Below, in pieces: positions 1 to 47,907 of a stretch of DNA of 64,000 bases. Made by a program: the position numbers and the translations under genes. This DNA comes from Paraprevotella xylaniphila YIT 11841 (GTDB lineage Bacteria > Bacteroidota > Bacteroidia > Bacteroidales > Bacteroidaceae), in contig NZ_GL883837.1 in assembly GCF_000205165.1 (NCBI RefSeq), positions 85,082 through 149,081 of the forward strand. The letters run 5' to 3'. Positions within the stretch are counted from its first letter, which is position 1, and each line of letters starts with the position of its first letter. The notes beneath the pieces were generated by a model, which made no database searches, was not told where the DNA came from, and was given only the letters and a program-made list of their open reading frames with translations.

Positions 1-2231
1 GCAGCAGACTCCGAACTGTTCACCGTGATGGCATTGCCTTCGATGGCAACCTTCACGCCTGCCAGCTTCTCCGGAACTTGGATGCCGGCCTCATACCCGT
101 CTGTCACGGTGACTTCCGCCGTCGTGAAACCACTGGCCAAATAGGCATAGTTCACCGCCTGCACACCCACGGTATAGCTGCCGGCCGGCAATTTCTCGAA
201 CATATAGAAGCACGAACCCTCATCCATGGAATAGTTTACGGCATACGCACCGAACATGCTATAAGCCAACTGCTTGCCGGTTTCCGTATTGGCCGGGACC
301 AACATACGGACGACACCGGTCTCATTGTTGCGGATATACACATTGTGGACTGCCACATTGCCATTGCTCAAATAAGCAGCAGGCCATTTCACCATTACCT
401 GACCTTTTTCGGCAGCCTCGGCCGTCACTTCAGCAGGCGCATCAGGATAAACCGGCTCATAATCGGTTTCATTGTAGCTGATGATAAAGTTGTCCGTACC
501 GGCTTCGTAACCGCTTGAAATGAGATCCAACTTGCCATCATTGTCCACATCCCCGAAGTTACCTGCGACCGGATGGTCGTCATCCCATTGCCACATAAAT
601 CCTCCAAATATGTCGTTGCTCCAATAATCAAAACCATAAGAAGTATAAAGCCCGACACTACCTCCTTCGCTTACATCAAAAACCCTGCAATAGTCCCATC
701 GGTTTCCATCAGGCTTCAACGCATCCGAACGTCCGCGATGGTATACATCCGGCACATCATCACCATTGAAGTCCCCATAGAAGAAACCACTGTTCCCACA
801 ACCGGTCATACCCACAATATTCACCTTCTCCTCATAAAAGCTGAACACAGAGCCTTCAACCGGCGTGTTAATCAGACAGAGGGTTTCAGGTACACCCGTC
901 CGTGATTTACCGCAAATCATAAGATCCATCAAACCATCTTGGTTATAGTCCGTAGCCATCATTACTAAATTCTCCGTAGCCCAAGCTGTGAAAACATCTT
1001 CCAACGTACCTTTGGTTTCGAGTCCCAATCCTGCCAATATCTCCTGAGCAGCTGGAATCAACTGGTCTGTCACATCTTTGAACGTGCCGTCCTTTTGGTT
1101 ATGGTAAAAGCGGATTTCGTCCCCTCCGGGTTCGGCACCGACATCTCCCATGTCTGTACCGTCAGCATATCCGGTAACTACAATATCCAACCAACCGTCA
1201 TTGTCCATGTCAAGAAAAGCCACAGACCCGTGGCTTAAAGGCTTAGCCTTCATGGTAGGTTGGTCTTGCAAGTACACGCTCTTGATGGATTCACCGGTTT
1301 CCGGATTGTCACTCACACCAGTTTCTTCCCATAAGCCACGCCGGTTCACTTCTTTGTCAAAAGGCAAGGCCTCAAATACATTTTGCACTTCAAAACGTTT
1401 ACCTTCCACATTCCGAAGCAATCTCATGAAACGGCCATTCACATCCATGCCCGTTATCAAAAGGTCTACAAAACCATCCTTGTCATAATCACCGGTCACC
1501 ACGGAAGTAAAGGCATTCTCTTCATTAAACTTATTGAAATCTCCTCTTTTTGGATTCTCCGAGAACTTCATGGAACCGAGGGTTTCGTCCTCTACTTCTT
1601 CAAACCGTCCGTTCCCTAAGTTCTTTACCAACTTATACCCTTGGACATCCCCGACCTCTCCCGGATGAAGGACCAAATAATCCACCAAGCCGTCTGCATT
1701 GAAATCAATGGGTTGCGAACCGGCACTCCAAGCTGTCTCGGGCAATCCGTTTTTCGTCCCCATATAATTTTCATGTTCTGTCACTATGGTATCATTCACG
1801 GGATTTCCTTCATCGTCCAACACCGGTGCCAGTTCTTCTATGATTTTATTCCCTTCACCGTCCAATACAAAATCCCCCTGATTGTCTTTCATCCATATCG
1901 TATCTATTTTCTGTACGATCGTAGAGTCGTAAGTAATCTCCATTATCGGTTCATAATCAGCAAGAAATTCTCTTCCGCCCAATCCTTTCGCAAAAACGGG
2001 CCTGGTCTGCCATCCTTGCGATTGCCGACGGCCATCCAACCACAAGTCGTTGATTCCATCATTGTCGAAATCACCAACCTTGGGAGTAGCATTACTATTT
2101 GCCCACCCATATTCTTCCCTAAACGTCATATCACGCGTGAACGTGATCGGGTTGTCCTGAGCCTGCACTTCACCAACTGAAGTCAACAATGCCGCGCTAA
2201 ACAACATTCCTTTAAAAGTCCTCTTTTTCAT
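1..2231 (-). CDS. FG-GAP/VCBS seven-bladed propeller protein, module 1 (3' end outside window)
   Basis: The reading frame opens at the ATG at 2231 and stays open to the window edge (743 codons); by comparison with the two paralogues at 27110-31861 only about 40 residues are missing. It begins with a Sec signal peptide without a lipobox cysteine. Seven calcium-binding type repeats (D-x-D-x-D-G-x-x-D, for example DFDNDGINDL, DYDKDGFVDL, DVDNDGKLDL) predict one integrin-alpha-like seven-bladed propeller. A fibronectin-III-like segment follows, and then the start of a small C-terminal domain. It is the last visible gene of module 1, 41 nt after the SusD gene. Unlike its paralogues it has no frameshift between blades 1 and 2. 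The role is inferred to be extracellular glycan or protein binding; no enzyme motif is seen. Confidence 0.85.
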   Translation of the reverse strand, partial: MKKRTFKGMLFSAALLTSVGEVQAQDNPITFTRDMTFREEYGWANSNATPKVGDFDNDGINDLWLDGRRQSQGWQTRPVFAKGLGGREFLADYEPIMEITYDSTIVQKIDTIWMKDNQGDFVLDGEGNKIIEELAPVLDDEGNPVNDTIVTEHENYMGTKNGLPETAWSAGSQPIDFNADGLVDYLVLHPGEVGDVQGYKLVKNLGNGRFEEVEDETLGSMKFSENPKRGDFNKFNEENAFTSVVTGDYDKDGFVDLLITGMDVNGRFMRLLRNVEGKRFEVQNVFEALPFDKEVNRRGLWEETGVSDNPETGESIKSVYLQDQPTMKAKPLSHGSVAFLDMDNDGWLDIVVTGYADGTDMGDVGAEPGGDEIRFYHNQKDGTFKDVTDQLIPAAQEILAGLGLETKGTLEDVFTAWATENLVMMATDYNQDGLMDLMICGKSRTGVPETLCLINTPVEGSVFSFYEEKVNIVGMTGCGNSGFFYGDFNGDDVPDVYHRGRSDALKPDGNRWDYCRVFDVSEGGSVGLYTSYGFDYWSNDIFGGFMWQWDDDHPVAGNFGDVDNDGKLDLISSGYEAGTDNFIISYNETDYEPVYPDAPAEVTAEAAEKGQVMVKWPAAYLSNGNVAVHNVYIRNNETGVVRMLVPANTETGKQLAYSMFGAYAVNYSMDEGSCFYMFEKLPAGSYTVGVQAVNYAYLASGFTTAEVTVTDGYEAGIQVPEKLAGVKVAIEGNAITVNSSESA

Positions 2232-2272
2232 AATTATATCTTTGGGTTAAACACTGCTTGTACCTATATGCT

Positions 2273-4006
2273 TCATTTCAAGTACCAACGCTCCTCTTCC
2301 ATCAAGGCTTGCTCCATTCTTTCCGCATTTTCTCCGAAACGTTCGGAAACCTTTTTAGCCATATAAGCCGGATATTGGTTACGATGGCGGGCCACCCTCA
2401 ACAGATCAAAGAACCTATTGCCTTCAAAGCATGTCTCTGCCGCCATCTCGTCCACGATACGGTCTTCCACAAACAAGATGGAATCTTCCAACGTTCCGGC
2501 CGAAGTTTCCGTATTGAAATCCGGGATGATATAAAATTCATTATCGTACGGAATCCCGTTTCCCCTCCCACGAGTGGCCGTACCTACGTTGTCAGCAAAG
2601 ATGTCTTCCGTAAAATCCGTGTATATTTCCCCTTTGCGTTCACTCTGTTTCACCCGGTTGGGATTCTCAATCGTCGTGGCATTCAATCCATATTTCAAAA
2701 CCGCAAAAGCCATTGTCGGTTTCCCCAAACGGTTCAAGGCTTCAGCCAAACGGAGGTAAACATGGGAAACACGGTATAAAGGCAAAGTCCGCTGCAGGTA
2801 TAATCCCCCCAAAGCCTCATTTTCGGGGTCGCTTCCACCTGTCACAATAGTTTTGTCCATATTGCTAAATTTGCATATATATGTAGCAGCGACATTGTTT
2901 AATGTCATTGAACCATAGGCTGAAGCAATTACCGAACCACCGGAAAGGACCGCCTGTCCACGCAGGTCTCCGTCACAGTATCCTGACACGGTAGGCTTTC
3001 CTTCCACTCCTACTACATATAAAGCTTCCGCCATGTCTTCCACAAAAGATTGCGCCGGAGCTATAAAAGCCTTGTCATTGTAAGACCAACGCAACAACAA
3101 CGGATGATAGTCTTTCGGATTTGAACTGTAAACCAATGAAGATACAACTTCATTGGTTGCATAACTCAATCCAGATGTATGCATAAAATACGAAAAGCCC
3201 TTACGGGATATGTCAAGCCATGCATTACGATACATCGCCGTCACCGTCAGTTCCCGTTCCTTTATCAGCCTGTAATACGCAGTGGCCGCATCCGCATATT
3301 GGTTCAAGAACAGGTATAAATCACCTAAGAGCATATCCACCGGAATAAATACCTTGTCAAGATTCAAACCGTCCACAGAACCGTAGTTCAAATCCCTGAC
3401 CCCGATATAGGGTTTCAAGTCTTCTATCAGAAGCTCTGCCAACTGCTCTTGGTTCTTCTGTGGATAATCTTTCAAACTGGCTTCCAAATCCAAAACCGGA
3501 GTTTCAATCCAACTGACCTCACCGCAAAGCAACGCCAACTGCCAATAGGTCCATGCCCGTATCACCTTGATTTGCGCGAATTCAGGTATCATGACCTTGT
3601 CCTCGTAATCGACCAAAGTCGTATCCATGTGGGCTATGGCATAATTGCAATTATTGATGACCTGATAATAATCATTCATCATCTTATATGGGTTGGAAGC
3701 AGAAACCTCAAACCGGGATATTTCCTGAAGGTCCACATCCGCATTGGCCGTGGCCTCCATCAAATCGCCACGTAATTCCCCCATCAGTACATACCTATCT
3801 CCTAACCTCTGAATTTGGGCCAATATCCCCATGATGGAATACAGCGAATCATTGGGAGAATCCAACCGGTTCCCCGACTCAAAAACGACCGAAGTCGAAT
3901 CTGTCTCAAACATGTCGGAACAAGCCGTAGGTACAAATAACCCCAAGCAAATCCATGCTCCCCAAACCGTCTTCATGTTCTTTATATTCATCTTCATAAC
4001 CGACAT
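2273..4006 (-). CDS. SusD/RagB-like surface glycan-binding lipoprotein (second SusD of module 1)
   Basis: A 577-residue SusD-like lipoprotein. A signal peptide ends at a lipobox-like cysteine (C29, followed by SDMFETD), and the acidic residues after the cysteine fit the Bacteroidetes surface-export signal. Family marks are the helical segment KVIRAWTYWQLALL and the C-terminal motif CFEGNRFFDLLR. SusD proteins form the lid of a SusC outer-membrane transporter and bind glycan. Only 7 nt separate it from the SusC gene upstream, which is presumably its partner. Several in-frame ATGs (4006, 3997, 3991, 3976) could start it; I keep the longest. Its closest relative in the window is the SusD at 31865-33673. 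Confidence 0.93.
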   Translation of the reverse strand: MSVMKMNIKNMKTVWGAWICLGLFVPTACSDMFETDSTSVVFESGNRLDSPNDSLYSIMGILAQIQRLGDRYVLMGELRGDLMEATANADVDLQEISRFEVSASNPYKMMNDYYQVINNCNYAIAHMDTTLVDYEDKVMIPEFAQIKVIRAWTYWQLALLCGEVSWIETPVLDLEASLKDYPQKNQEQLAELLIEDLKPYIGVRDLNYGSVDGLNLDKVFIPVDMLLGDLYLFLNQYADAATAYYRLIKERELTVTAMYRNAWLDISRKGFSYFMHTSGLSYATNEVVSSLVYSSNPKDYHPLLLRWSYNDKAFIAPAQSFVEDMAEALYVVGVEGKPTVSGYCDGDLRGQAVLSGGSVIASAYGSMTLNNVAATYICKFSNMDKTIVTGGSDPENEALGGLYLQRTLPLYRVSHVYLRLAEALNRLGKPTMAFAVLKYGLNATTIENPNRVKQSERKGEIYTDFTEDIFADNVGTATRGRGNGIPYDNEFYIIPDFNTETSAGTLEDSILFVEDRIVDEMAAETCFEGNRFFDLLRVARHRNQYPAYMAKKVSERFGENAERMEQALMEEERWYLK

Positions 4007-4013: not shown

Positions 4014-7000
4014 TTATAAATTGATATTCACACCTAATTGGAAAGACCTGGACTGAGGGGTCAATCCTCCGTCAATGCCCTGTTCCAATACAGATGTACT
4101 ATAAGAAAACTCCGGATCTACACCCAAATATTTCGTCAACGTACAAACGTTGTTCACGGCTGCCCACACGGAAAGGCTTTGAATAAAATTCTGCCGCATC
4201 GGGACATGGTAAGTAAGCATCAAACGTTTGAACTTCAAATACGACGCATCTTCTATCCAACGATCCGAAAAGCGTGAGTTCCCCATAGGGTCATCATAAG
4301 TAGCACGAGGAATATCCGTTTGCTGCCCATTGGCCATCCATCTGTTTTCCATGGAGACAGACTGGTTATACAAACTCTTTCCCGACTCCAAACTGGCACG
4401 CAAGGCATTATAAGCGTCATTCCCCAACGAATAAGTAAACAATGCTCCCAACTCCAGGTTCTTCCATTGGAAATTCAGGTCGAAGTTTCCGTAAATGTCC
4501 GGATTCGGATCACCTATTACCACCCGGTCCTCCTCATTGATGATTCCATCCTTTTTCACATCTACGAAGCGTATATCGCCGGCTTGGAAGGGCACGCGCT
4601 GTCCAGAAGAAGAAAGAATGGCCAGACCGGCTTCTGCCGCTTCCTGCGAAGTAGAGTAGACCCCGTCCGTAAGATAACCATAAAATACACCAACCGGACG
4701 ACCGACTTCTGTCAGCACTTGTCCGTCACATACTTCGGTAATGAAACTTCCATTTTCCAAGGATGTCACCTCGTTTTTATAATGTCCGACTGTCGCCCCG
4801 ATGTTTAATTTAAAGTCACGCATATCCAACGCCCGGACTTTCACGGCGACTTCCAAACCATTATTCTTCAATTCCCCGTTATTGTCCCAAAAGTATTCCA
4901 ACCCCGCTTCATCGTTCAACGGCCTGCGTGTCACCAAGTCTTTAGTGCGAGAGAAAAAGACATCGGCATTCACAGCCAAACGATTCGAAAACATACTAAA
5001 ATCCAGACCGATATTGGTTCTTGCCGTTGTTTCCCATTTCAATTTCTCATTGCCGATATTAGCCAAAACCAACCCCGTGGCATCTTTAACAAAAGACGTA
5101 GACGTAAAATAACTCCTATTGGCGAAAAGCGGAAGGTTGTCGTTGCCCGACATGGTATAAGCCACACGAACTTTAAGATTATTGACGAAATCCACATTCC
5201 GCATGAACTTTTCCGATGAAACCAACCAAGCCCCAGAGACAGACGGGAAATAGCCCCAGGAAACACCAAATAAATCCAATCCTCCGGCTTCGCGGCCAAA
5301 ACGCGAAGACGTTTCCAAAGACATGCCTACATTGAAAAAGTAACGGTGCCGGTAAGCATAATCCGCATTAAAATACCAAGCCGTGTTCCGGTCCGTATAT
5401 TCATGACCGGTCAACGTGCGAAGGTCGCTGTTTGTATTGGAAAGCGCGGTCATATAGTCGTTTCCCGTATTATACCCTTGCCCCATGGTATAACGATAAT
5501 AAGTATTGTAGAAACGGCCTCCTATACGCGCATTCAAATCATGCCGCCAGTCTTTCAGAATCTGCCATGCCAAATAACCGTCCACCGACATAGAAGTCTG
5601 CCGGGCCATAAGGTTACGCACTTCATTCAATGCCGTGGCGTAAATCTCTCCCCTATCATTATACAACGGCTCATTGGAAACACCGGCATCCGGGATAAAG
5701 AGGTTTTCATTTTCTTTATCATAAGAAATCCCGAACAAAGCGGCAACTTCCAAACGGTCCGTTATCTGATAGCTCGGTCTTAAGTTCAAATTAAAACGAT
5801 ATTTATCCAACTCGGGAACATCTTCGCCTGTCAACGCCAAGGGGTTGCCGACATTCAGTTCGTCGACATCCGTCAAACGCCCGCTGAACGTCCCATTGTC
5901 GTTGTACTGCCACGGAGCATACAACGGGGATTTCACCAATGACAGGAAATAAGGCGAACGCATGCCGTCCAATCCTTCAAAGACAACCTTATGCCCTGTT
6001 TGCGCATAAGAAATGTCGGTCTGGATTTTAAAATCCTCCGTCAATTTGATATCTGAATTAAAACGTACGTTCAAACGGTTGAAACTCGTTCCGTCTATGT
6101 TCCCGTCGTTCTTGGCATATCCCAAGGAAAAACGATACAATGCTATATCATCTCCACCGGCCACCGAAACGCCATAGTTTTGGATAAAAGATGTCTTGTT
6201 GATTTCATTCGTCCATTTCGTATCGTTGTGTACCGCACGGTAAAACGAACGGGTCGGGTCGTCATTGGTAAACTGGAATCCCTCAACCTCATCACGTTTC
6301 ATGCCGGACATGATATCTGTCGCATAACGCCGATAGGCTGCCGCCCCCATCAGAGGCAGACTTTCAAAAGGTGTCTGAAATCCCATTGAAATATTTGCTT
6401 CTATCTGGGTGGCCATTTCACGTGCACGTTTCGTGTCTATCAGTACTACGCCGTTTGCCCCCTTGGCTCCCCAGACCGCAGAACCGTTCTTTAAAATCGT
6501 GACTTTCTCAATATCCGAAGGGTCAAGCAAGGTCAAAGGGTTATTATAATAATTGTCCACAGCACTGGCTACTTGATCCTGCATCTGCCATATCACGCCA
6601 TCCACCACGAATAGGGGTTGGGCAGAAAGGTTCACGGAATTATATCCCCTGATAAAGAATGAGGAGCTGCTACCGGGATCCCCCGAGTGGGAAATAGCAC
6701 GCAACTGGCCGTTTAACAACGATGTCATGTCATCGGTCATGCTCAAAGTTCCGGATGTAAACCCATCCACCACGGCTTCACCGTCCGACACCGACATTCC
6801 GTCGTCATAGTACGCATGTCCGGATACCGTAAACAATGACACATCGACTTCATTGCGCCCTTTCACCGGCACGACTTGCCTTGAATATCCGGGTGCCTCT
6901 ACATAAAGTGCTACCGACAAGTCCGGCACTCCAATCTCATAATTTCCGTTCTCATCCGTCATGGCAGAAACATTCAGGTTAGGGGTCGTCACACGTGCGC

Positions 7001-7196
7001 CGGCAAATCCCTTTTTCGTCACAGCATCTATTATCCGTCCTTTCACTTTATAGGGCATGTCCGTTTTCTCCGTCCTCACCGAAACACTATCATTTTTTCC
7101 CAAATCCTGTGCTACGGCAAGCTCCGACAACACGACAAGTCCCATCACGGCACTTATCACTTTTACTGAATGGTATTTTGATATATTAGTCATCAT
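4014..7196 (-). CDS. SusC/RagA-like TonB-dependent transporter (second SusC of module 1)
   Basis: A 1060-residue outer-membrane transporter. In order it has a signal peptide, a carboxypeptidase-regulatory-like domain (about 50-115), a plug (about 165-260, with FFIRGYNSVNLSAQPLFVVD and VTILKNGSAVWGAKGANGV), and a long 22-strand-type barrel ending in the aromatic-poor C-terminus LGVNINL. The stretch between the first domain and the plug lacks an obvious TonB box and the usual ALQGRVAG-type motif; it reads SLLNGQLRAI instead. SusC proteins import oligosaccharides through the outer membrane using TonB energy. It pairs with the SusD gene 7 nt downstream and is clearly paralogous to the SusC at 33673-36861. 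Confidence 0.95.
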   Translation of the reverse strand: MMTNISKYHSVKVISAVMGLVVLSELAVAQDLGKNDSVSVRTEKTDMPYKVKGRIIDAVTKKGFAGARVTTPNLNVSAMTDENGNYEIGVPDLSVALYVEAPGYSRQVVPVKGRNEVDVSLFTVSGHAYYDDGMSVSDGEAVVDGFTSGTLSMTDDMTSLLNGQLRAISHSGDPGSSSSFFIRGYNSVNLSAQPLFVVDGVIWQMQDQVASAVDNYYNNPLTLLDPSDIEKVTILKNGSAVWGAKGANGVVLIDTKRAREMATQIEANISMGFQTPFESLPLMGAAAYRRYATDIMSGMKRDEVEGFQFTNDDPTRSFYRAVHNDTKWTNEINKTSFIQNYGVSVAGGDDIALYRFSLGYAKNDGNIDGTSFNRLNVRFNSDIKLTEDFKIQTDISYAQTGHKVVFEGLDGMRSPYFLSLVKSPLYAPWQYNDNGTFSGRLTDVDELNVGNPLALTGEDVPELDKYRFNLNLRPSYQITDRLEVAALFGISYDKENENLFIPDAGVSNEPLYNDRGEIYATALNEVRNLMARQTSMSVDGYLAWQILKDWRHDLNARIGGRFYNTYYRYTMGQGYNTGNDYMTALSNTNSDLRTLTGHEYTDRNTAWYFNADYAYRHRYFFNVGMSLETSSRFGREAGGLDLFGVSWGYFPSVSGAWLVSSEKFMRNVDFVNNLKVRVAYTMSGNDNLPLFANRSYFTSTSFVKDATGLVLANIGNEKLKWETTARTNIGLDFSMFSNRLAVNADVFFSRTKDLVTRRPLNDEAGLEYFWDNNGELKNNGLEVAVKVRALDMRDFKLNIGATVGHYKNEVTSLENGSFITEVCDGQVLTEVGRPVGVFYGYLTDGVYSTSQEAAEAGLAILSSSGQRVPFQAGDIRFVDVKKDGIINEEDRVVIGDPNPDIYGNFDLNFQWKNLELGALFTYSLGNDAYNALRASLESGKSLYNQSVSMENRWMANGQQTDIPRATYDDPMGNSRFSDRWIEDASYLKFKRLMLTYHVPMRQNFIQSLSVWAAVNNVCTLTKYLGVDPEFSYSTSVLEQGIDGGLTPQSRSFQLGVNINL

Positions 7197-7216: not shown

Positions 7217-8797
7217 CTAATTATTTTTTGCAGGAACGAACCTGATACGGTCTATCCTAAACCGCCGTACATACTTTACATTCAACTCCGATGGTGACAC
7301 GTTAGTCTTAATCTCCAATGTTGTCTTCGGGGATATCTCATTCACCTTGTCGGCGTTGTCTTCATCCAAATACCACATTGCATCGTAAAAATCGGAGGTC
7401 GGGAATTGATATGCGCTCCACACTTTCACCGTCTTCATATAGACATCTCCCACGCTGTCTCCTCCAACAATCAGTTCCTCGTCATTTTTCCCCTGACGGC
7501 TTTCATATTTAGTCCTACCGTTTTCCTGTTCCACCTTCATCCTATAAGACAGACAAGTCTTTTCCGTCGCACGGCTGTTGCCGTCAATCGCAGGAGGAAC
7601 GAAATCGACATAAATATCATATTGGGTAGCCAATACATTGGGAATATCGAATGTCACGCCCGGATTCAAGGAAGACCCGGACACTTCCAGGTAACTGTTT
7701 TCACTAATCCCCTTTACCACACTGGTTCCGTCAACATCCCGTACATAGGCTGAAGTACCTGAAGCCGTAACCAAACGTCGGTCAAGATCTTCACCTTCCA
7801 CTATTATAGGCTGGTTCCACACACACGTATCATCCAGATGGAGATTCCCGTCAGCCAAAAACATCAAGCCGTTGGAAGCCGGTTCTTGCCGATACCCGGC
7901 AAAATAATCTTTCGTATTCCGTATGACGCTTCCGGTTACAGTGACCAACGAATCAGCACTTCCGGGATCTGTTATCCGACCGCCGAAGGTCAATCCATAC
8001 ACAATGGCCTGCCCAGTCTGCACTCTCGTGATAGAATCCGCCACAGCCTCATCGACATTATAAACTTTGAAATAAGGACTGACTTGCTCATACGCCTTAT
8101 CCCAAGCCTCATTGTCCGGCAAGATCATGGTGTAGACGGAATCTTCATCGTGAATCCATCCTATCCCATAATAATAATTCTGCAACAGCCGGTTATAGTC
8201 CCTAAAAACAGAGTCCTTCTGACTGCTCTCTCCCGAAACATAGATTTTCTCCGAGAACTGGTTTATAAAGTCATATATCTTTGAATAATTCTCTTGAGTG
8301 GAAATATACTCCCAAAAGTTATAACGATAAGGGATCGTGTCGTTCAACTTGTGCAAGACTCCGTTTTGTGCCAATATATCCTTCTGCACAATGGATATGC
8401 CGTTGAATACATCTGCCGACTCGTACGACATGACCTTTCCATCCAACATGTATATGGACTTCCCGGCTTCTGTCGCAGTCGAATTGGAATAACGGGCTAT
8501 ATGATTCTTTACCATCCGTTGCAACGCCGCCTCGTCATCCATGTCCACAGAAGACAGTGCTTCATCGACAGGTGCCCAAACCGTGTAAGTCTGTGTCGAG
8601 CCCAACAAAGAGTCCGCACCCGTCTTCATCAGGATTTGACTGAACTTGGTCAACTGGCTATCATTAAGAATCATATCCATTAAACTTACCTCAGGGATGC
8701 TTCCGTTACGGCTGTAATGTTCATCCCAATCATCGTTACAAGAAACGATTGAACCTCCGATGCCTAATATCAGGCAAATTATACCTTTATATCTCAT
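7217..8797 (-). CDS. FAS1 (fasciclin) domain surface lipoprotein with C-terminal beta-sandwich, module 1
   Basis: A 526-residue lipoprotein with cysteine C20 followed by NDDWDE, which fits surface export. Two FAS1 domains can be traced by their closing motifs: about 36-160 (NGVLHKLNDTIPY) and about 161-325 (NGLMFLADG). The C-terminal 200 residues end in RFRIDRIRFVP, the pattern of a galactose-binding-like beta-sandwich. FAS1 domains mediate adhesion or ligand binding; no catalytic motif is seen. It lies 20 nt before the second SusC of the module and 16 nt after the other two-domain FAS1 gene, so it is probably an accessory subunit of the SusCD complex or a binding protein. Its orthologous neighbour in module 2 is at 36890-38461. 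Confidence 0.88.
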   Translation of the reverse strand: MRYKGIICLILGIGGSIVSCNDDWDEHYSRNGSIPEVSLMDMILNDSQLTKFSQILMKTGADSLLGSTQTYTVWAPVDEALSSVDMDDEAALQRMVKNHIARYSNSTATEAGKSIYMLDGKVMSYESADVFNGISIVQKDILAQNGVLHKLNDTIPYRYNFWEYISTQENYSKIYDFINQFSEKIYVSGESSQKDSVFRDYNRLLQNYYYGIGWIHDEDSVYTMILPDNEAWDKAYEQVSPYFKVYNVDEAVADSITRVQTGQAIVYGLTFGGRITDPGSADSLVTVTGSVIRNTKDYFAGYRQEPASNGLMFLADGNLHLDDTCVWNQPIIVEGEDLDRRLVTASGTSAYVRDVDGTSVVKGISENSYLEVSGSSLNPGVTFDIPNVLATQYDIYVDFVPPAIDGNSRATEKTCLSYRMKVEQENGRTKYESRQGKNDEELIVGGDSVGDVYMKTVKVWSAYQFPTSDFYDAMWYLDEDNADKVNEISPKTTLEIKTNVSPSELNVKYVRRFRIDRIRFVPAKNN

Positions 8798-22011: not shown

Positions 22012-22030
22012 ATAATTATTTCACAATCTT

Positions 22031-36889: not shown

Positions 36890-38461
36890 TCAAGGTACAG
36901 GCACGAAACGAATCCGGTCGACACGGAAACGGCGACGATACTTCACATTCACTTCCGAAGCTTTCACATTGGTACGGATACGGAATGTCGTACGTACTTT
37001 CACATCGTCCGTGGAATTATCCTCATCCATGAACCACATACCATCATAATAATTGGCTGCGGGCAGTTCCAATGCTTCCCAAACTTTCAAAGTCTTCACT
37101 TTGTTGTCGCCTACACTGTCTCCTCCGATAATCAAATCCGGATCGTCATCATCGTCACGCGAGATATTGGCAGTACCATTCTTGTCAGCGCGCGGATAGA
37201 CCAATCGGAACTCCAACCGCGTTTTTTCCTCGGCCAAAGCGACTCCGTCAATGACGGGGGGAACAAAATCCACATATACGTCGTATTTACCGGCCAAAAT
37301 CTGAGGTATCTCAAAAGTAACTTCCGCTGTTCCCGTAGCATTGGTCACCTCCAGATAACTATTGTTGCTCACACCCTGCACGGCACTGTTGGCATCCGTA
37401 TTGCGCACATAGGCACTTGTACTGGTACTCGTAGTACGACCGTTCAAATACTCGGCTTCCACTAAAATTTCTTTATTCCATGTACAAGTGTCATCTAAAA
37501 CCAAATCTCCTTTCGCCAAGTACATCAACCCGTTGGAACCATCCAGTTTCGTATAAGGCGCAAAATAACGGCCTGTCTGATAAATCACATTTCCCGTAAC
37601 TGTCACCAAAGAATCCTTTGATGCCGGGTCATCAACCCTTCCCCTGAATGTCAAACCGTTCAGGATAGCCTGCCCCGTCTGTACATCACGAATCGAATCA
37701 GCCACAGCCTCGTCCGCATTATACGTCGTAAAATAAGGACTGATATGAGCATAGGCTTTGTCCCAAGCTTCGTTGTCCGGCAGAATCATGGTATAAAGCG
37801 AGTCTTCATCATCAATATGGCCAATACCATAATAATAATTATAAAGCATCGGATTGTAATCCACAAACACCGAATCCGTTCCGACGCTGGCTGATGCATC
37901 ATACCTCTTTTCTATAAAACGGTTGATGAACTCATACACCTTGGAATATTCAGGATAAACGGACATATATTCATAGAAATTATAACGGTAAGGAATGGTG
38001 TCGCTCAGTTTGTGCAGAATACCATTAACCGCCCGCTCATTACCTTCCTCCAAAGCCGTCCCATTGAAAGAACCCGTCCCGTCATACGCCATACGTTTAC
38101 CGTTTAACATATAGATGTACTTCCCCGGCTGAGTGGAAGTAGGGTTGCTGTAACGGGCGATATGATTACTTACCAGGCGTTCCAATGCAGCTCGGTCTGT
38201 CATGTCTACATTCGCCAAGGCCTCGTTTACCGGCGCCCACACAGTATAAGTCTGGTTAGATGCAAGCAAGCTATCCGCCCCCGTCTTTTCCACTATTTGG
38301 GCGAAAGTACTCAACGATGCGTCATTACGGAGCAAAGCCATCAGGCTGACCTGAGGCACACTACCATTCAAGTCGTAATGCGCATCCCACTCGTCGTTAC
38401 AGGAAACAAACAACGCCGCCCCCGATAACAAACAGATGATTCCTTTATTTATTTGTTTCAT
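36890..38461 (-). CDS. FAS1 domain surface lipoprotein with C-terminal beta-sandwich, module 2
   Basis: A 523-residue lipoprotein with cysteine C21 (ALFVSC) followed by NDEWDA. It has two FAS1 domains (about 36-160, closing NGILHKLSDTIPY; about 161-325, closing NGLMYLAKG), then a beta-sandwich of about 200 residues ending in RFRVDRIRFVP. It closely follows the 526-residue protein of module 1, and the order relative to the second SusC is the same (28 nt gap). Probably a surface binding or accessory subunit; no enzyme motif. Confidence 0.88.
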   Translation of the reverse strand: MKQINKGIICLLSGAALFVSCNDEWDAHYDLNGSVPQVSLMALLRNDASLSTFAQIVEKTGADSLLASNQTYTVWAPVNEALANVDMTDRAALERLVSNHIARYSNPTSTQPGKYIYMLNGKRMAYDGTGSFNGTALEEGNERAVNGILHKLSDTIPYRYNFYEYMSVYPEYSKVYEFINRFIEKRYDASASVGTDSVFVDYNPMLYNYYYGIGHIDDEDSLYTMILPDNEAWDKAYAHISPYFTTYNADEAVADSIRDVQTGQAILNGLTFRGRVDDPASKDSLVTVTGNVIYQTGRYFAPYTKLDGSNGLMYLAKGDLVLDDTCTWNKEILVEAEYLNGRTTSTSTSAYVRNTDANSAVQGVSNNSYLEVTNATGTAEVTFEIPQILAGKYDVYVDFVPPVIDGVALAEEKTRLEFRLVYPRADKNGTANISRDDDDDPDLIIGGDSVGDNKVKTLKVWEALELPAANYYDGMWFMDEDNSTDDVKVRTTFRIRTNVKASEVNVKYRRRFRVDRIRFVPVP

Positions 38462-40366: not shown

Positions 40367-41925
40367 TTTTTAGAAATATCGTCCGAAGTTTTATAAAATG
40401 CGTTTTGTTCCAGCAAGGAGTTCAAACGTAATTCATCCTGATGAATAGGCATATAAATGGCTTCTTTGTCGTTAATCTTACTGAGTACTGTACTTTGGTT
40501 TAAACTCATAGCCACATATTTACGTAGCAAGTATGTGTTAACCAAAGCCGTCACATTACCTTCACGACGTGCCCGACGCACAATGTCAAAATAACGCTTG
40601 CCTTCAAAAAGGAATTCACGCTGACGTTCATCGAAAACCAAATCGCGAACCGCTGATTGCGGAGTAGAGGCGGGATATTGCACTTTTAAACTTCCAGATT
40701 CCAAATCAGGGTGCGCCCTGTCATAAGTATAAGAAACCATGTCCACGGCACCGGCAATGTCCCCCAACTCGACCAAAGCCTCGGCCTTCATCAAGTACAC
40801 GTCGGCCAAACGGTAAACAATCCAATTGGACTCATTATTCCCGTATTGGAAATTATTGGACTTTACCTCTTCAAAATCCGTAGCATAACAATAAGACGTA
40901 TATTTCTTAATCATATATAACCCGTCCTCTACATAAGACTGGGCACGGCGCATATCCAAGCCGTCCCACCAATCCTCTCCATTCTGTCCGTCGAAATCAA
41001 GCGAAGACAGCAACGGGGAAGAGTTATTGGAACTTCCATAAAACGTGTTGACCGCCCCATTGGTCGTATTGGGATCGAACTGCAATTCCCAAATACTTTC
41101 ATCGGAATTTCCAGTTGCCGGGCCAAACACCGTATTAAAATAGGTATCAGCAGGTAAAAGAGCCAACGGATTTGTCGCCGTGGTCAGAATCTTATTGCAA
41201 TAGTCTACACATTGACGATAATTCCCCCTCCACAAACTCATATCAGCAATCAAAGCCCAAATAGCCTTCTGCGTTACTCGCCCACGGGTATAGGCCGTGT
41301 TTTCACCATATTCTGTCACGGCCACATTTTCTACAGTCTTTAAGTCACGAATCAAAGTATCCAAGACATTCTCAAACGGAGTTTGTCCGACTTGAAATCT
41401 TTGCGTGTCGTCCACATAAGGCGTTTCCATATAAGGTATGTCCTTAAACGTGCGTGCCAACGTAAAATAACAGAATGCTCGGATTCCCTTGGCTTCTGCC
41501 AAATATTGGTTCAAGTCTTCCTCCGTAAAGTCCGCATCGCGTTCCCTCACCATTGGTGCGTTTTGAATCACCGTATTACAATAGTTAATGACCGTATAAA
41601 AATCATTCCACTTGCAATAGCTGTTGGCCTCGTTCAGGTTAGCATTCAGGATATAACCGATTTCCGTATCCGTCCCCAAACCATTTATCACATTATCAGA
41701 ACGTAATTCACCCCATACAACCAAACGGCGCATGAAGCCGTCTTCCAACATAGCCCTATAACAGGCCCCCACGGCACTTTTCACGTCTTGCTCATCTTTC
41801 CAAAAGTCCTCGGCCACCATCTCGGACTGCGGCATAATGCCAAACCAGTCATCACAGGAAGCCGTGACACCCAAGAAAGGCAAACTTAGGAAGAAGACAC
41901 CTATTTTATATATATACTTTTTCAT
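40363..41925 (-). CDS. SusD/RagB-like surface glycan-binding lipoprotein (first SusD of module 2)
   Basis: A 520-residue SusD-like lipoprotein with lipid cysteine C24 (GVTASC) followed by DDWFGI. The motifs AEAKGIRAFCYFTLARTFKDIPY and ERQREFLFEGKRYFDIVRR are diagnostic. It lies 20 nt after the first SusC of module 2 and overlaps the next FAS1 gene. Its nearest relative in the window is the 514-residue SusD of module 1, not the other SusD of its own module. Confidence 0.94.
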   Translation of the reverse strand: MKKYIYKIGVFFLSLPFLGVTASCDDWFGIMPQSEMVAEDFWKDEQDVKSAVGACYRAMLEDGFMRRLVVWGELRSDNVINGLGTDTEIGYILNANLNEANSYCKWNDFYTVINYCNTVIQNAPMVRERDADFTEEDLNQYLAEAKGIRAFCYFTLARTFKDIPYMETPYVDDTQRFQVGQTPFENVLDTLIRDLKTVENVAVTEYGENTAYTRGRVTQKAIWALIADMSLWRGNYRQCVDYCNKILTTATNPLALLPADTYFNTVFGPATGNSDESIWELQFDPNTTNGAVNTFYGSSNNSSPLLSSLDFDGQNGEDWWDGLDMRRAQSYVEDGLYMIKKYTSYCYATDFEEVKSNNFQYGNNESNWIVYRLADVYLMKAEALVELGDIAGAVDMVSYTYDRAHPDLESGSLKVQYPASTPQSAVRDLVFDERQREFLFEGKRYFDIVRRARREGNVTALVNTYLLRKYVAMSLNQSTVLSKINDKEAIYMPIHQDELRLNSLLEQNAFYKTSDDISKN

Positions 41926-41945: not shown

Positions 41946-44900
41946 TTAAATACCTACGGTCAGGCCAAATGTAAAGTAGCGTGAACGCGGTGTACGATTC
42001 TTGTCCTCGCTCACCCCGATATTGTTCGGTGAAATTTCAGGATCTGCACCGGTATATTTAGTTATTGTAAACATGTTGTTCAATGTCAAGGAAAGATTGA
42101 GAGTATTCAGATGTGCCTTTTTCAACAACTTCGGATCGAAAGAGTAATTCAATGTCAATTGCTTCAAACGTAGAAAAGAACCATCTTCTACAAAGCGATC
42201 ACTACCCAACCAGTTATATCCACTCTGGAAAAGAGCACGCGGGATTTCCGTCATATCCCCATCCTTGCGCCAACGCCAGTTCGTGGACACGGACTGATTC
42301 TCCGTGTTGTACATGCTCTCGGAATACATCCGTCCGTAATTAATAATCTTACCCCCCACGCGATAGTTGAAGAACACATTCAAGGAAAGGCGTTTCCAAC
42401 GGATGGTCGTACCGAAACCACCATCGAATTTCGGGTTGGAGTTACCCAAATACACGATGTCCAATTCGTCTATCGTACCATCATGGTTAATATCTTCATA
42501 AATTGCATCTCCCCCACGGAAACGGTATTCATTCGTCGTTCCGTATGCGAAATACATCGGGATGGGGTCACCGGAACCATCCAACACCACATTGCCATTG
42601 GCATCACGCACCACCGGTGCCGTGGCATCCGGCTTATCCGGTTGGTAAGTATCGTATTGGTACACGCCCTTATACCGGAAGCCATAAATGGAACCGAAAG
42701 AGTTATTCACTTGGAAACGGTTCAAGTAAGACCCGTTCGAGTAGTTGAAGTCCGCATTATAGTTATGCAACACATTCTCATCCAAGTCAATAATGGTGTT
42801 CACATAGTTCGAAAAGTTCAAACTTAAATCTACAGACCAATCGCCACGCTTCACCATGTTGTTCGTGCTGAACTCTATTTCCCAACCATCATTGTCCATC
42901 GTACCGCCATTGATATAGGATATGGAGCCGAATCCCGTTGAAGACGGGATGGACTGGTCCTTGAACAACAAGTCATCCGTACGACGGTGGTATACGTTCG
43001 CCACCAAACGGTAACGCCAGTCGAAAAGGCTCAAGTCCACACCCAAGTTATAAGAAGTAGAACGCTCCCATTTCAAGTCTGTCAACTGCAAAGAGGCAGG
43101 TTTGATAGCCGGAATGTCAATGTAGCTCGTCCCGAAACTATTGTAACGGGCATAATGCAAGTACTCGTAGTCCGGACGGTTACCAGTCACACCATAACTC
43201 AAACGCAAGGCAAACTCATCCATCCAGTCATCCGCAAAATCAAAGAATTTCTCTTCTGAGATAAGCCATTTCACCGATGCAGAAGGGAAGAAGCCCCAAC
43301 GGTTACCTGGTCCGAAACGCGTACTGCCATCCCAACGTGCAGTCACATCGAACACGTAACGGTCAAGCAGGAAATAATGGCCCTGCAAAAGGAAAGCCAT
43401 ATTGCGCCCCTCGCTCCGCTCGCTCTTGAACGTATTCAGATGCCCCAAGTTGGTCACGTCCGTAGCCGAAGTGGAAGCTAGCCCGTAACGTTCAAACTCT
43501 TGGTTCCTGGAATTGGCCATGTCCATTTCCCATTTCCCGTAAAGCATCAGGGAATGTGCCTCTGGAAGCTTGGGCTGCCATGTCAAATCATGAGCCGTGT
43601 AGATAGAAAAAGCTTCGCTCTCCTTTCCGTATGCCTTGTTCACGCTCCCGTCGTTCCAATTCTTGGATGTCGTCTCACGCGGCAAGAACTTGGTATCCTT
43701 GACATTTTCAGAGTCGAATTTGATATAACCCGAGTAACGGAGTTTGGCTTCGCCTGCGGGATCCAAAAAGTCATATTGCAAACGCAAGGTGGGCATGATA
43801 CGCATGCTTGTCTGTTGATAAGAAGCCAAATTACCGATAGCCACGGGATTACGCAAATTCTTTTGGGCATCATCCAACTGCGAATTTTGCGCTATATTGA
43901 AATAAACATCCGTGTTATTTCCATTGGCATCCTGCCGGAAAATCGAAGCATTCGGCATGCGCTTGCGGGCAATGTTCAAAAGATTGTCCTCACCGTAAGG
44001 GTCATCCGTATAGTTCTTGTCATTATCCGTATAAGTGATGGAAAAATCCGCTGAAAACATCATCCGCGAACTTACGTTGTAGTCCAAATTCATACGGTTG
44101 GAGAAACGGGTCATTTCCTGGCCGATAATGGTACCCGTCTGGTTATAATAACCGAACGAAGCACGGAATTTGGCCTTATCACCACCACCGCTCACCGAAA
44201 GGTTGTGGTCGTGGGTAAAACCATGCTTGATGACCTCATCCATCCAATCCGTATTGTTGTTAAAGTTCTCAAAATCCTGAGCCGTTCCGTATGCAGAAAT
44301 GAACTGTGAACGGTCATAGCTAAACTCTGGGATATTGCAATCTTGTTGGGCACGATTGAAATAAGCCTGTTTCATGAGCATCGTGTAATCATCGCCATTG
44401 AGCAATTCCGTACCCTTCGGCTGGGTATAACCTGAAAAACGATAGGAATAGCTTACACGTGTAGGTCCTGTCGCACCCTTCTTTGTCCGGATGTCAATCA
44501 CACCATTGGCACCGCGGCTTCCCCAAATGGCCGCCGCCGCACCGTCTTTCAAGACTGTGATTTCTTCGATGTCATCCGGACTGATACACAACAAGGAGGC
44601 AAACTCTTCCTGGTCGGCCGAAGCGAAGTCGAACGAATCGTCGATATTACTTTCAAAAGGAATACCGTTCAGCAAGATAAGCGGCTGTGAATTGGAATTG
44701 ATAGAAGTGATACCACGGATACGCATCACCGTGCCACTACCCAAGTCACCCGAATTGGCCACAATATCCAAGCCCGCGATACGTCCTTGCAAGGCATCGT
44801 CAATGGAAGGCACGGACACCCCTTCGATGGCTTTCGTATTAAACTTCTGCATCGCACCGGAATATTCCCGCTCGGGAATAGCCAACGCACCGCCACCTGT

Positions 44901-45263
44901 CACCAACTTAGATGCTTTGACCTGCACTTCTTTCAGCACATTCTGTGTCTCTAATTTCACATCAAACTTCCGTGTCGCCCCAATAGGCAAGGTCTTACGT
45001 TTATAACCCACAAACGAAAAGTTCAAAGAATGGGACGGGTCTTTCACCTTTAATGAAAAGTTTCCGTTAAAATCCGTCAGGGCAGATGAATATATACGTC
45101 CGTTCTTGTCCTGCTCCACGACGGTGGCTCCGATGAAACCATCAGGTTCATCATCGGCATAAACCTTACCGGTGACAATTACGCCACCGCTTTGGGCATA
45201 GGCAGCTCCCCCTAAAAGGAAGAAAGCCAACCACAATACCACTGATTTTATCTTATTTTCCAT
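41946..45263 (-). CDS. SusC/RagA-like TonB-dependent transporter (first SusC of module 2)
   Basis: A 1105-residue transporter. A signal peptide (ends at AYAQ), a carboxypeptidase-regulatory-like domain, a TonB-box-like strand LKEVQVKASK (about 111), a plug with DALQGRIAGLDIV and ITVLKDGAAAAIWGSRGANGV, and a full barrel ending FTFGLTVGI follow in order. It is strongly similar along its length to the 1099-residue SusC of module 1, with divergence largely at synonymous positions, so the duplication is not recent. It pairs with the SusD 20 nt downstream. Confidence 0.96.
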   Translation of the reverse strand: MENKIKSVVLWLAFFLLGGAAYAQSGGVIVTGKVYADDEPDGFIGATVVEQDKNGRIYSSALTDFNGNFSLKVKDPSHSLNFSFVGYKRKTLPIGATRKFDVKLETQNVLKEVQVKASKLVTGGGALAIPEREYSGAMQKFNTKAIEGVSVPSIDDALQGRIAGLDIVANSGDLGSGTVMRIRGITSINSNSQPLILLNGIPFESNIDDSFDFASADQEEFASLLCISPDDIEEITVLKDGAAAAIWGSRGANGVIDIRTKKGATGPTRVSYSYRFSGYTQPKGTELLNGDDYTMLMKQAYFNRAQQDCNIPEFSYDRSQFISAYGTAQDFENFNNNTDWMDEVIKHGFTHDHNLSVSGGGDKAKFRASFGYYNQTGTIIGQEMTRFSNRMNLDYNVSSRMMFSADFSITYTDNDKNYTDDPYGEDNLLNIARKRMPNASIFRQDANGNNTDVYFNIAQNSQLDDAQKNLRNPVAIGNLASYQQTSMRIMPTLRLQYDFLDPAGEAKLRYSGYIKFDSENVKDTKFLPRETTSKNWNDGSVNKAYGKESEAFSIYTAHDLTWQPKLPEAHSLMLYGKWEMDMANSRNQEFERYGLASTSATDVTNLGHLNTFKSERSEGRNMAFLLQGHYFLLDRYVFDVTARWDGSTRFGPGNRWGFFPSASVKWLISEEKFFDFADDWMDEFALRLSYGVTGNRPDYEYLHYARYNSFGTSYIDIPAIKPASLQLTDLKWERSTSYNLGVDLSLFDWRYRLVANVYHRRTDDLLFKDQSIPSSTGFGSISYINGGTMDNDGWEIEFSTNNMVKRGDWSVDLSLNFSNYVNTIIDLDENVLHNYNADFNYSNGSYLNRFQVNNSFGSIYGFRYKGVYQYDTYQPDKPDATAPVVRDANGNVVLDGSGDPIPMYFAYGTTNEYRFRGGDAIYEDINHDGTIDELDIVYLGNSNPKFDGGFGTTIRWKRLSLNVFFNYRVGGKIINYGRMYSESMYNTENQSVSTNWRWRKDGDMTEIPRALFQSGYNWLGSDRFVEDGSFLRLKQLTLNYSFDPKLLKKAHLNTLNLSLTLNNMFTITKYTGADPEISPNNIGVSEDKNRTPRSRYFTFGLTVGI

Positions 45264-45285
45264 AACCTATCTGATTATTTTTTTA

Positions 45286-47907
45286 TTAACGATAGTCTAC
45301 TACATGATCCACCAAGTGGATGACTGCGTGAGAAGAAGCCGTAATTTGCGTAGCCGCCTTATAGTCGCTATTATTTACGATATAATCACGCGTAAATACA
45401 TTATAATTATTCTCGTCCCCCGTCACCACATGAGCCTGTGTTCCCGTGTTCTCGGAAGTAAACGTCAACTGGTTGCCATTTCCCGATACATTCAAGTACA
45501 CAAAATGGTTGTTTTCATCACGGGCAGCCGTGGCATACGAACCATTATAAGAAATGCCGTCCCCCATGGGAAGGATACCGTCCACGAAATGGTAACGCAG
45601 GAAGTTCAGCAAGTAAAGCGTCTTTGCTTTTTTCTTGGCCGGATCGGTTTCAGCCGCAATCCGCTCCCAAGTCCATAATTCCGGGTCTTCGGCAAAAGCC
45701 TTGTCCAAGGCTTCTTTAGTGGGAACCAATACCGTATAACGGAAGTTGTTGAACGAAGTAACAATAGGACCAAGCCCAGATGAAGAAGTCGTTACATCCA
45801 AATCAAAAATAGGCTCCACGTCCTCATCCTCTTCAAAATAAGCCCATACACGTTCGTCGCCCTGCAGCAATTGATAGAAAGCCGCATAGGCCTCGTGTGT
45901 CTCAGCATCAGCCATCGTGTAATACACCGACTTATAAGAATCCTGCAAAATACGGTCGATAAAGAACGTATGCCCGTTGGTCATTTCATAACGTGCGGGA
46001 TTACCATCTTCCAACGCAACCACATGAGCCGAAGGCCATCCCATTTCTACATCACCGAGCCCTTTGACCGACAACGCGCTGCCAACGCCTTCTGCCTGCA
46101 ACACGGCACCGCCTTTAGTCAGGAAATAAGGCTGAGTGCCTTCATCCATATAACCGGAAAGAGGCTCTGTTTCATCATTGGCCACAACAATGTGCATGTC
46201 CAACAAATCTTGTAACCGATCGTTTACTTGATTCCGCTCATCCCCCGTTTCATCATCCAACGTACGAAGGAGTTCTCCTTTGTTTCCATTTTCATCCACG
46301 GCATACACATCGGCTACGACACGCCCCATGTACACCCGGAACGACCATATTTCACGATTGTCGATCTGTTCATTCGCCCAAATGGCCCATGTAATGGGAT
46401 CGCGATAATCAGCCAAAGCTTTATCTGTGGGCACTAACAAATTGTAACGGCTATCAAGCGAACGGAGATAGAAATGGTATTTCAAGTTGTAATCATTGTC
46501 CACATCGTTCTTAATGGCCGGCGACATGATTGTCGTGGAGTCAGAAATCAACACCGGAGCATACACGCTTTGGTAATCCACAGGCGCGAACACTTTGTTG
46601 GTCACATAAATCAATCCGTTGTTTGCCGGAATAGTTTTCACTACATCGTTTTCCGTAATCCCCAACTCGAAACCTGCATTATCAGACATAATGTCCCAAT
46701 TATGCGGCAATGCACCGTTGAACGAACGCTGTTGATGATTCTGCAAAAAAGCAGAAACCACAGTCGTGTACACACTGTCCCACTGTGGAAATTTGTCAGA
46801 AAGGAACTTACCTTCTTCAGATGTCCAATATTCCTGCATGGCCTCATTCGTAGGTACAATCATCACTCCCATATCGCCATTACCGCCATAGGCATGTGAG
46901 GCAGGGTCGTAAAGTAACGTACCATAACCATTGATATCCACTTTGCCTTCCGGGTCAGCATTAAAATCCGTTTGGTTGAAATAACGTTTGACAAACACGG
47001 TAGAATCTTCGTTAAAAATACCACCATATGCAGCCGCCAAATTGGACTGAATCGCCCCGTCATAATATGGGAAAGAGAACATGTCCAACAATTCAGCAAA
47101 CTGAGAAACCTCAGGAGTAGAAGTGATAACTTCTGCCATGTTCGGCAAAGGTGTCACCACACCGTCGGCCAAATGCAAATAACCGTTCTTGCAAGTCACA
47201 TCCTTGTTCTGTGCCTGCACGTGAATACCATTCACATAGAAACCGCTTGCGTCCCAAGGCATTCCCCACCCTTTGGAAATTACATTCCAATCGGACTCCG
47301 TAAGGTTGATTCGAGAAAAATACTGAGGCGTAAAGAATACCGACATTCGGTTTCCATTATCTGCCAAAAAAGTACCTCCTTTTCTTTCAAAACGCTTCCA
47401 AAAACTTGTCTTTGGCATATCCGCATAAGAAACATAAGGAACCGTGTCCAGTAGAGTCGCAGATGAAGTCCTACGCACAGCAGTACCTTCGCTCAAACCA
47501 TCTGCATCAGAGGTGATGTTTGCCAACATATTGCTCAAATATGCCATGTTAAGCATTGTGGAATTGAACAAATAGCGTTTCTGCGAAGCCGGAAGATTAT
47601 GTACGAAATCTGCCCCGCCGCCATGCATTCCATTTTCACGGAAATAATCGGCAAAAGCCTCATCGGTAGCAGGAAACAGAGTCTTGCTACCCGTGCGGCG
47701 CAATGTCTCTTCATAACCCAAGTCTTTCACGAGTGCCAAATAGCTCGTGTACTGACCGCTTTTCTCCAAATACTCGTAGATATTCTCACCCAACCAAGCA
47801 GGAGCCTCGTCATCATAGATGTAGTCATCCTTGCACGAACTGAACAAAGACAAGCACACCGCAGCACAAAGGCAAGCGTTCAGGTTATTCATCTTATGTT
47901 TTCTCAT
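45286..47907 (-). CDS. Large four-domain FAS1 lipoprotein, first gene of module 2
   Basis: An 873-residue lipoprotein with cysteine C25 (LFSSC) followed by KDDYIYDD. Four FAS1-like units close with NGYLHLADGVV, NGLIYVTNKVFAP, FFIDRILQD and AVIHLVDHVVDYR. It is the first gene of the module 2 operon, 22 nt before SusC, and the counterpart of 15558-18215. The in-frame ATG at 47892 (MNNLN) could also start it. The role is inferred to be surface binding or scaffolding; no catalytic site is visible. Confidence 0.88.
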   Translation of the reverse strand: MRKHKMNNLNACLCAAVCLSLFSSCKDDYIYDDEAPAWLGENIYEYLEKSGQYTSYLALVKDLGYEETLRRTGSKTLFPATDEAFADYFRENGMHGGGADFVHNLPASQKRYLFNSTMLNMAYLSNMLANITSDADGLSEGTAVRRTSSATLLDTVPYVSYADMPKTSFWKRFERKGGTFLADNGNRMSVFFTPQYFSRINLTESDWNVISKGWGMPWDASGFYVNGIHVQAQNKDVTCKNGYLHLADGVVTPLPNMAEVITSTPEVSQFAELLDMFSFPYYDGAIQSNLAAAYGGIFNEDSTVFVKRYFNQTDFNADPEGKVDINGYGTLLYDPASHAYGGNGDMGVMIVPTNEAMQEYWTSEEGKFLSDKFPQWDSVYTTVVSAFLQNHQQRSFNGALPHNWDIMSDNAGFELGITENDVVKTIPANNGLIYVTNKVFAPVDYQSVYAPVLISDSTTIMSPAIKNDVDNDYNLKYHFYLRSLDSRYNLLVPTDKALADYRDPITWAIWANEQIDNREIWSFRVYMGRVVADVYAVDENGNKGELLRTLDDETGDERNQVNDRLQDLLDMHIVVANDETEPLSGYMDEGTQPYFLTKGGAVLQAEGVGSALSVKGLGDVEMGWPSAHVVALEDGNPARYEMTNGHTFFIDRILQDSYKSVYYTMADAETHEAYAAFYQLLQGDERVWAYFEEDEDVEPIFDLDVTTSSSGLGPIVTSFNNFRYTVLVPTKEALDKAFAEDPELWTWERIAAETDPAKKKAKTLYLLNFLRYHFVDGILPMGDGISYNGSYATAARDENNHFVYLNVSGNGNQLTFTSENTGTQAHVVTGDENNYNVFTRDYIVNNSDYKAATQITASSHAVIHLVDHVVDYR

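Follow-up and report, generated by a model that had tools for sequence, protein, structure and literature searches.

Introduction

Bacteroidota characteristically take up glycans through SusCD transporters, which are described as TonB-powered homodimers. Here we describe, in a 64,000-nucleotide stretch (C33:85082-149081, hereafter the window) of the 3.79 Mb genome of Paraprevotella xylaniphila YIT 11841, a cassette of seven genes in which two different SusCD pairs are combined with three FAS1 lipoproteins. Its tandem SusCD pairs resemble those of the Xus system, which has two pairs in one locus used for xylan and is not known to include FAS1 lipoproteins. The likeness extends to a copy of the cassette on contig C32, which adjoins genes for members of glycoside hydrolase (GH) families GH10 and GH67.

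Articles are cited below by PMC number. The levan and dextran utilisomes of Bacteroides thetaiotaomicron are built on a homodimer with two SusC and two SusD, SusC2D2 (PMC7618045). Like the cassette, they have an SusCD core and surface lipoproteins that are encoded together, but they also include a GH and a surface glycan-binding protein with immunoglobulin-like domains. The cassette has instead two different SusCD pairs, three FAS1 lipoproteins, no core enzyme and one SusC without a TonB box. In Flavobacterium johnsoniae, SusC, SusD and a structurally unrelated surface lipoprotein were purified as one complex, SusCDE; this complex has a single SusCD pair, and the terms FAS1 and fasciclin are absent from the main text of the article (PMC12611786). 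A FAS1 gene is drawn with SusD in a Gramella polysaccharide utilisation locus (PUL), where the abbreviation appears in the figure legend only and the available text describes no double pair or cassette (PMC4891872). In a mussel symbiont, one contig carries two SusCD pairs, and the article separately mentions a FAS1 protein with high transcription (PMC10199937); in two articles on tandem SusC, the available text contains neither FAS1 nor fasciclin (PMC10807430, PMC11036162). No description of a FAS1 double-SusCD cassette was found in the open-licence full-text literature searched.

We consider it rather probable that the cassette encodes one glycan-uptake machine, in which SusC1D1 is a TonB-driven importer and SusC2D2, together with the FAS1 lipoproteins, forms a non-energised capture and docking partner.

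Organisation of the two modules

Open reading frames (ORFs) and Pfam matches define two modules on the minus strand of the window, each with the core unit FAS1x4-SusC1-SusD1-FAS1b-FAS1c-SusC2-SusD2. Genes inside the seven-gene modules are separated by gaps of 5-28 nt or overlap by 1-4 nt, and two adjacent susC-susD pairs are present in each. Module 1 begins with FAS1x4 (15558..18215, 885 aa), a lipoprotein with four FAS1 domains, followed by SusC1 (12241..15540, 1099 aa), which has an N-terminal extension, a TonB box (KEVTVKAS), a plug and a barrel, and by SusD1 (10688..12232, 514 aa). FAS1b (8814..10682, 622 aa) is a lipoprotein with two FAS1 domains and a predicted C-terminal domain resembling a carbohydrate-binding module (CBM). 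The lipoprotein FAS1c (7217..8797, 526 aa) consists of a FAS1 domain, a FAS1-like second domain and, again, a predicted CBM-like C-terminal domain. SusC2 (4014..7196, 1060 aa) is an SusC-type barrel with an N-terminal extension and a shortened plug match, and has no TonB box; SusD2 (2273..4006, 577 aa) closes the unit. Module 2 consists of FAS1x4 (45286..47907, 873 aa), SusC1 with a TonB box (41946..45263, 1105 aa), SusD1 (40363..41925, 520 aa), FAS1b (38486..40366, 623 or 626 aa by choice of start codon), FAS1c (36890..38461, 523 aa), SusC2 without a TonB box (33673..36861, 1062 aa) and SusD2 (31865..33673, 602 aa).

A first-pass annotation of the window had reported two modules in the same gene order at these coordinates, and our ORFs and Pfam assignments agree with it. 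It had also described a set of eight genes; however, the core has seven, and the FG-GAP propeller gene taken as the eighth was rejected, its matches being confined to C33 within the fetched genome stretches. The claim that the set contains no enzyme is correct for the seven genes but not for their surroundings, where GH95, GH92, GH3 and other enzymes lie around the modules. The extent of 1-18215 proposed for module 1 is right inside the window, although the module continues beyond the window edge.

TonB box in SusC1 and SusC2

Both SusC types are detectably related to solved SusC chains. SusC1 has the features of a TonB-dependent transporter, namely a TonB box and, by Pfam, a plug and a barrel, and its box (KEVTVKA, NEVIVTA, DEVVVVG and similar) sits after the N-terminal extension. 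The box was scored with a position-weighted matrix made from SusC1 boxes, SusC1 itself being scored leave-one-out, and the threshold was set at the score that 5% of shuffled SusC2 regions attain. All 86 SusC1 rows and 9 of 12 other SusC were above threshold, whereas only 4 of 68 SusC2 rows were, against 3.4 expected by chance. One Paraprevotella clara gene occurs twice in each set, so that 85 SusC1 and 67 SusC2 rows are distinct. Of the 68 SusC2 rows, 44 are N-terminal fragments truncated where the locus ends; a misassigned row (L039:4392-7922, a non-cassette SusC) was removed. Among the controls that failed, L129 (LDELVVVGYG) is just below threshold; the other two are L131 and L135. In 83 of 86 SusC1, the best-scoring site is found 71-74 residues ahead of the plug anchor, while the four SusC2 matches lie 87 residues before it, within the N-terminal extension. 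In the alignment to solved SusC chains, the TonB box of these chains faces SusC2 columns without a box. An earlier, strict regular expression, which dropped rows without an anchor (5 SusC1, 6 SusC2), had matched 64 of 82 SusC1 and 15 of 62 SusC2, with 21.6 and 11.3 expected from shuffles, and is superseded by the weighted matrix.

Deletion of the box in Bt1763, or its replacement with alanines, causes a growth defect like that of SusD loss (PMC7782687), and a review places the box in all TonB-dependent transporters (PMC11658791). Judged by its sequence, SusC2 is not a standard TonB-dependent transporter; since the TonB box is missing, it has probably lost direct energising in the known way. 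Could SusC2 be driven by TonB through an unrecognised box or through its N-terminal extension? The extension is indeed retained in the printed SusC2 rows, L109 excepted. We see only a slim chance of this, as no conserved segment is visible by eye between the signal peptide and the extension in the printed rows, and the four matches above threshold occur at the chance rate and at a position shifted from that of the SusC1 box.

The first-pass annotation had left a choice between one multi-subunit machine and two transporters sharing binding proteins. The latter would be two importers, both TonB-dependent but each working on its own, that take up different products of a single polysaccharide and have three binding proteins in common, and the presence of two complete SusCD pairs from different subgroups accords with it. 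It is nevertheless unlikely in our view: SusC2 lacks the motif needed in Bt1763 (PMC7782687), and neither SusC subfamily was found outside the cassettes in this genome. The single machine fits better because the examined SusC2 rows have no TonB box.

A different double SusCD set with FAS1 proteins lies at C24:8399-27792 of the same genome (L016, L135). It begins with an SusC (990 aa, no TonB box detected), an SusD, a weak FAS1 protein (264 aa, below the Pfam cut-off) and a DUF5007 protein; its second half has an SusC with a TonB box, an SusD, a FAS1 protein (268 aa), a DUF5008 protein and an M60-like peptidase. That one SusC of this set also has no detected TonB box hints at a general rule.

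The FAS1 lipoproteins

All six FAS1 proteins of the window have a Pfam FAS1 match above the cut-off. AlphaFold models made with 56 aligned rows each reached a pLDDT of 91.1 for FAS1b and 90.0 for FAS1c, and both contain the FAS1 fold; their top fold matches are the FAS1 tandems of TGFBIp and periostin. Lower in the ranking, the FAS1b model matches the xanthan-binding module MiXBM (6e-6) and CBM35 (2e-4), and the FAS1c model CBM22 (2e-5), CBM6 (2e-4) and MiXBM (5e-4). These CBM matches probably fall on the beta-rich C-terminal part of the two proteins, each of which is predicted to join FAS1 domains to a CBM-like beta-sandwich. The models suggest that these two lipoproteins may bind glycan. In FAS1c, the fold of the second domain is FAS1-like, but its profile match is weak. 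In FAS1x4, profile matches cover 44-256, 352-444 (with a start at 260-279) and 666-881, and are weak at 484-504 and 570-662; the first and last domains are strong and the second is good. The four domains initially proposed for this protein are consistent with these matches, although the third is weak. The lipobox cysteine is invariant (7/7 FAS1c, 6/6 FAS1x4 and 8/8 FAS1b rows), and by eye acidic residues follow it in most rows, a possible surface-export signal.

TGFBIp and periostin are adhesion proteins, and the highly transcribed FAS1 protein of the mussel symbiont is interpreted as an adhesion factor (PMC10199937). The FAS1 lipoproteins might accordingly form an adhesion apparatus binding surfaces, cells or matrix, with the SusCD pairs as passengers. 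This seems quite improbable, considering that SusC1 is the most conserved part of the cassette and that glycan enzymes adjoin it at 4 of 6 sites in the genome and at most scanned sites elsewhere. Over 57 loci, median identity is 48% for SusC1, 38% for SusD1, 36% for the first 420 residues of SusC2 and 29-36% for the FAS1 proteins.

The genome also encodes six FAS1b-like proteins (723-729 aa), at C7:62351-69321 (three), C36:3051-5231, C49:63093-65282 and C86:13342-15519. No cassette SusC or SusD match accompanies them in the fetched stretches; those on C7 are near GH31 and an AraC-type regulator, and the one on C86 is near GH2.

Cassette copies in the genome

Searching the whole genome for FAS1 returned 22 matches. 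The cassette itself is present in seven copies, twice on C33 and once each on C32, C13, C87, C20 and C65, and the core order is kept in 6/7; the C65 copy has two FAS1b genes upstream of FAS1x4 and none between SusD1 and FAS1c. The full-length FAS1x4 of C20 has 947 aa. Proteins of the copies outside C33 share about 24-49% identity with those of the window.

Whole-genome searches with SusC1 and SusC2 profiles, each built from the genome's own seven sequences, returned seven SusC1 of at least 1828 bits (next 373) and seven SusC2 of at least 1585 bits (next 445). Because the profiles contain those same sequences, the informative part is the absence of an intermediate eighth member. In these searches no further SusC1 or SusC2 was found outside the cassettes; all fourteen are in cassettes, out of 23 SusC-type genes found in the genome by the two profiles at E<=1e-20. 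Among 392 phylum genomes, with at most 2 candidates scored per genome, the SusC2 profile at E<=1e-200 selected 7 besides our own, and these are the very genomes with FAS1x4 matches of at least 128 bits. Between copies, SusC1 and SusC2 distances are correlated with C33a left out (r=0.92 for five modules, 0.96 for six), which indicates joint inheritance rather than contact.

The neighbours of the copies differ: GH67, GH10 and an MFS transporter at C32, GH43 enzymes, a GH5/GH43 protein and a hybrid two-component regulator (HTCS) at C87, and GH28, GH30 and alginate-lyase-like proteins at C65. Carbohydrate-active enzymes and a regulator, the mark of a PUL, were found in the window and at C32, C87 and C65. 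The enzymes vary while the carrier stays constant, as one would expect if one transport cassette were employed for a number of different glycans. Proteins of 1210-1225 aa without a Pfam match lie beside cassettes at C13:27510-31187 and C87:22355-25987, and at L099:6102-9779 in another locus.

Origin of the C33 pair

The C33 pair is a recent block duplication. Within the fetched genome stretches, and with self-matches excluded, each gene is most similar to its positional counterpart in the other module, with identities of 83% for SusC1, 73% for SusC2, 63-64% for SusD1, 59-60% for FAS1c, 58% for FAS1x4, 57% for FAS1b and 56% for SusD2. SusC1 and SusC2 are only 26-27% alike. In the SusC1 tree, modules 1 and 2 form sister clades with full support, each with a P. 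clara copy and one from another Paraprevotella bin. Since each sister clade contains a P. clara copy, the block was duplicated before the species split; the two-module locus is present in P. clara too, where the genes lying between the modules also match.

These data confirm three proposals made at first pass: that the nearest relative of each gene is its same-position counterpart (56-83% identity between modules), that the whole set was duplicated, as the sister clades and best matches indicate, and that the two SusCD pairs belong to different subgroups, which the profiles separate into two groups of seven. A recent duplication as the source of all copies was rejected, as those outside C33 are spread through the Bacteroidales SusC1 tree.

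Distribution beyond the genome

The cassette is widespread in the family and patchy outside it. At E<=0.001, matches to the FAS1x4 profile came from 215 of 301 family genomes (19 of 30 genera) and from 70 of 392 in the phylum, numbers that overstate the cassette because weak FAS1 matches also enter at this threshold. At most 2-3 candidates per genome were scored in the family, phylum and order FAS1x4 draws and in the phylum SusC2 draw, so copies per genome are not countable from them.

Gene order was read in named Bacteroidales at the best 79 loci among the matches listed, which include Paraprevotella, Prevotella, Paludibacter, Dysgonomonas, Geofilum, Alkalitalea, Natronoflexus, Carboxylicivirga, Plebeiobacterium and Prolixibacteraceae. 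The test covers six genes, SusD2 being beyond the fetched flank in most, and the exact order FAS1x4-SusC1-SusD1-FAS1b-FAS1c-SusC2 was present in 51 of the 79. FAS1b is upstream of FAS1x4 in four others, not called in three, and present as two ORFs or copies in four, of which two end before SusC2. SusC1 is in two ORFs in one, and no FAS1x4 is called in L052. The remaining 15 stop early after a shorter run in the same order; in 14 of them the contig ends there, and in L090 FAS1b is followed by a different gene. At L048, SusC2 and SusD2 are followed by FAS1x4, a 1457 aa protein and a second FAS1x4 that heads another cassette, apparently two cassettes in tandem. Five of ten picked upstream neighbours (at L046, L051, L057, L061 and L066) encode Glyco_hydro_cc proteins that carry an H-type lectin domain and end in a type IX secretion system (T9SS) tail.

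Strong FAS1x4 matches (128-172 bits) in the phylum draw come from eight loci in seven other genomes, of families f4 and f6 of the same class, outside the order Bacteroidales. The core order is kept in 8/8. With the 51 Bacteroidales loci, this answers the question of synteny raised by the earlier work, since the order is not unique to this genome. SusD2 is present in 7/8, the stretch ending after SusC2 in L103, and the first protein is shorter (726-755 aa). Twenty neighbours were scanned at six of these loci, and among them are a rhamnogalacturonan-lyase-type protein, GH2, GH115, GH88, GH95, SASA esterases and sugar catabolism genes. A ninth set, L109 (G302), is reduced and more distant, with a FAS1 protein, SusC1, SusD1, FAS1b, an SusC2 of 919 aa and, at the end, an SusD whose score is higher with the SusD1 profile; FAS1c is absent. 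This SusC2 has neither a TonB box nor an N-terminal extension.

Genes around the modules

Module 1 is followed by an FG-GAP propeller gene that leaves the window (1..2231, minus strand; 817 aa in the contig) and, beyond the window edge, by a second propeller of 785 aa. Module 2 is likewise followed on the minus strand by two FG-GAP propeller genes (29532..31861 and 27110..29427), each made of two ORFs that overlap as TGATG. Within the fetched genome stretches, the propellers are specific to this locus. Both module 2 genes are interrupted at the same place, while their P. clara counterparts are single ORFs of 787 and 775 aa; the split may reflect either a shared frameshift or coupled translation.

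Between the modules, the minus strand encodes a GH3 enzyme (24592..26865), two proteins of 801 and 706 aa with a weak Melibiase_C match (19891..24436) and a GDSL-type hydrolase (19195..19878). GH92 and GH95 enzymes lie upstream of module 2 on the same strand (48989..53646), and an HTCS adjoins the locus on the plus strand (53763..57995). To the left of the window, at C33:69134-79578, are eight co-oriented genes, one of which encodes a distant FG-GAP propeller relative (570 aa). The P. clara contig that carries the locus matching ours, NZ_JH376591, is also the source of the trypsin-binding protein 00502, from an eight-gene locus 00502-00509 (PMC9477747). An identity of the propellers or of the genes left of the window with the trypsin-binding proteins 00502/00509 was considered and not established. 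Three FG-GAP proteins of P. clara, and one more protein next to them, had no NCBIfam match.

Discussion

We favour a single machine, in which the cassette proteins would associate physically. All three FAS1 lipoproteins would serve at the cell surface as subunits for glycan binding and docking. The CBM-like ends of FAS1b and FAS1c would hold the glycan, and the FAS1 stalks, with FAS1x4 as a FAS1-only arm or bridge, would keep these two proteins at the barrels. SusD1 would act as the lid that loads SusC1, and SusC1 would import with TonB energy. SusC2D2, a barrel with its own lid, would be the non-energised partner, perhaps as half of an asymmetric SusC1D1-SusC2D2 pair that replaces the known SusC homodimer. 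Different PULs could employ such a cassette, each surrounding it with its own enzymes and regulator. The asymmetry is the boldest step. In its fullest form, a hetero-tetramer of TonB-driven SusC1D1 and box-less SusC2D2 with a FAS1 docking scaffold, conserved across the Bacteroidota, it is a tentative proposal to which we give somewhat less than an even chance.

Several observations weigh against a dedicated glycan-uptake machine. No glycan enzyme was recognised among the scanned neighbours of C13 and C20 (for C20 a single gene, a tRNA synthetase), and the neighbours of outside-order loci (G450, G632) include an M28 peptidase, UvrB and a transposase. The CBM-like matches are moderate (E about 1e-4 to 1e-6) and given without ranges, fold matches of similar strength were obtained to unrelated beta-sandwich proteins (Cry2Aa, phage tailspike, Reelin), and profile comparison gave no match between the C-terminal domains of FAS1b and FAS1c. 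SusC2 keeps its extension, plug and barrel, and could be powered through another contact. Because linked genes co-inherit, correlated distances do not prove contact, and those of FAS1c are weak without C33a (r 0.08-0.51). In the order draw at E<=1e-80, 11 of 295 genomes, ours included, were found; since the cassette is patchy outside the family, it is not needed for glycan use generally.

If the reading as one machine is true, the cassette would represent a second SusCD architecture, and FAS1 domains would gain a role in the uptake of nutrients by bacteria. Two barrels sharing the work, one powered and the other not, would be a principle new to SusCD systems, and culturable carriers of the cassette, such as P. 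clara or Dysgonomonas, allow it to be tested.

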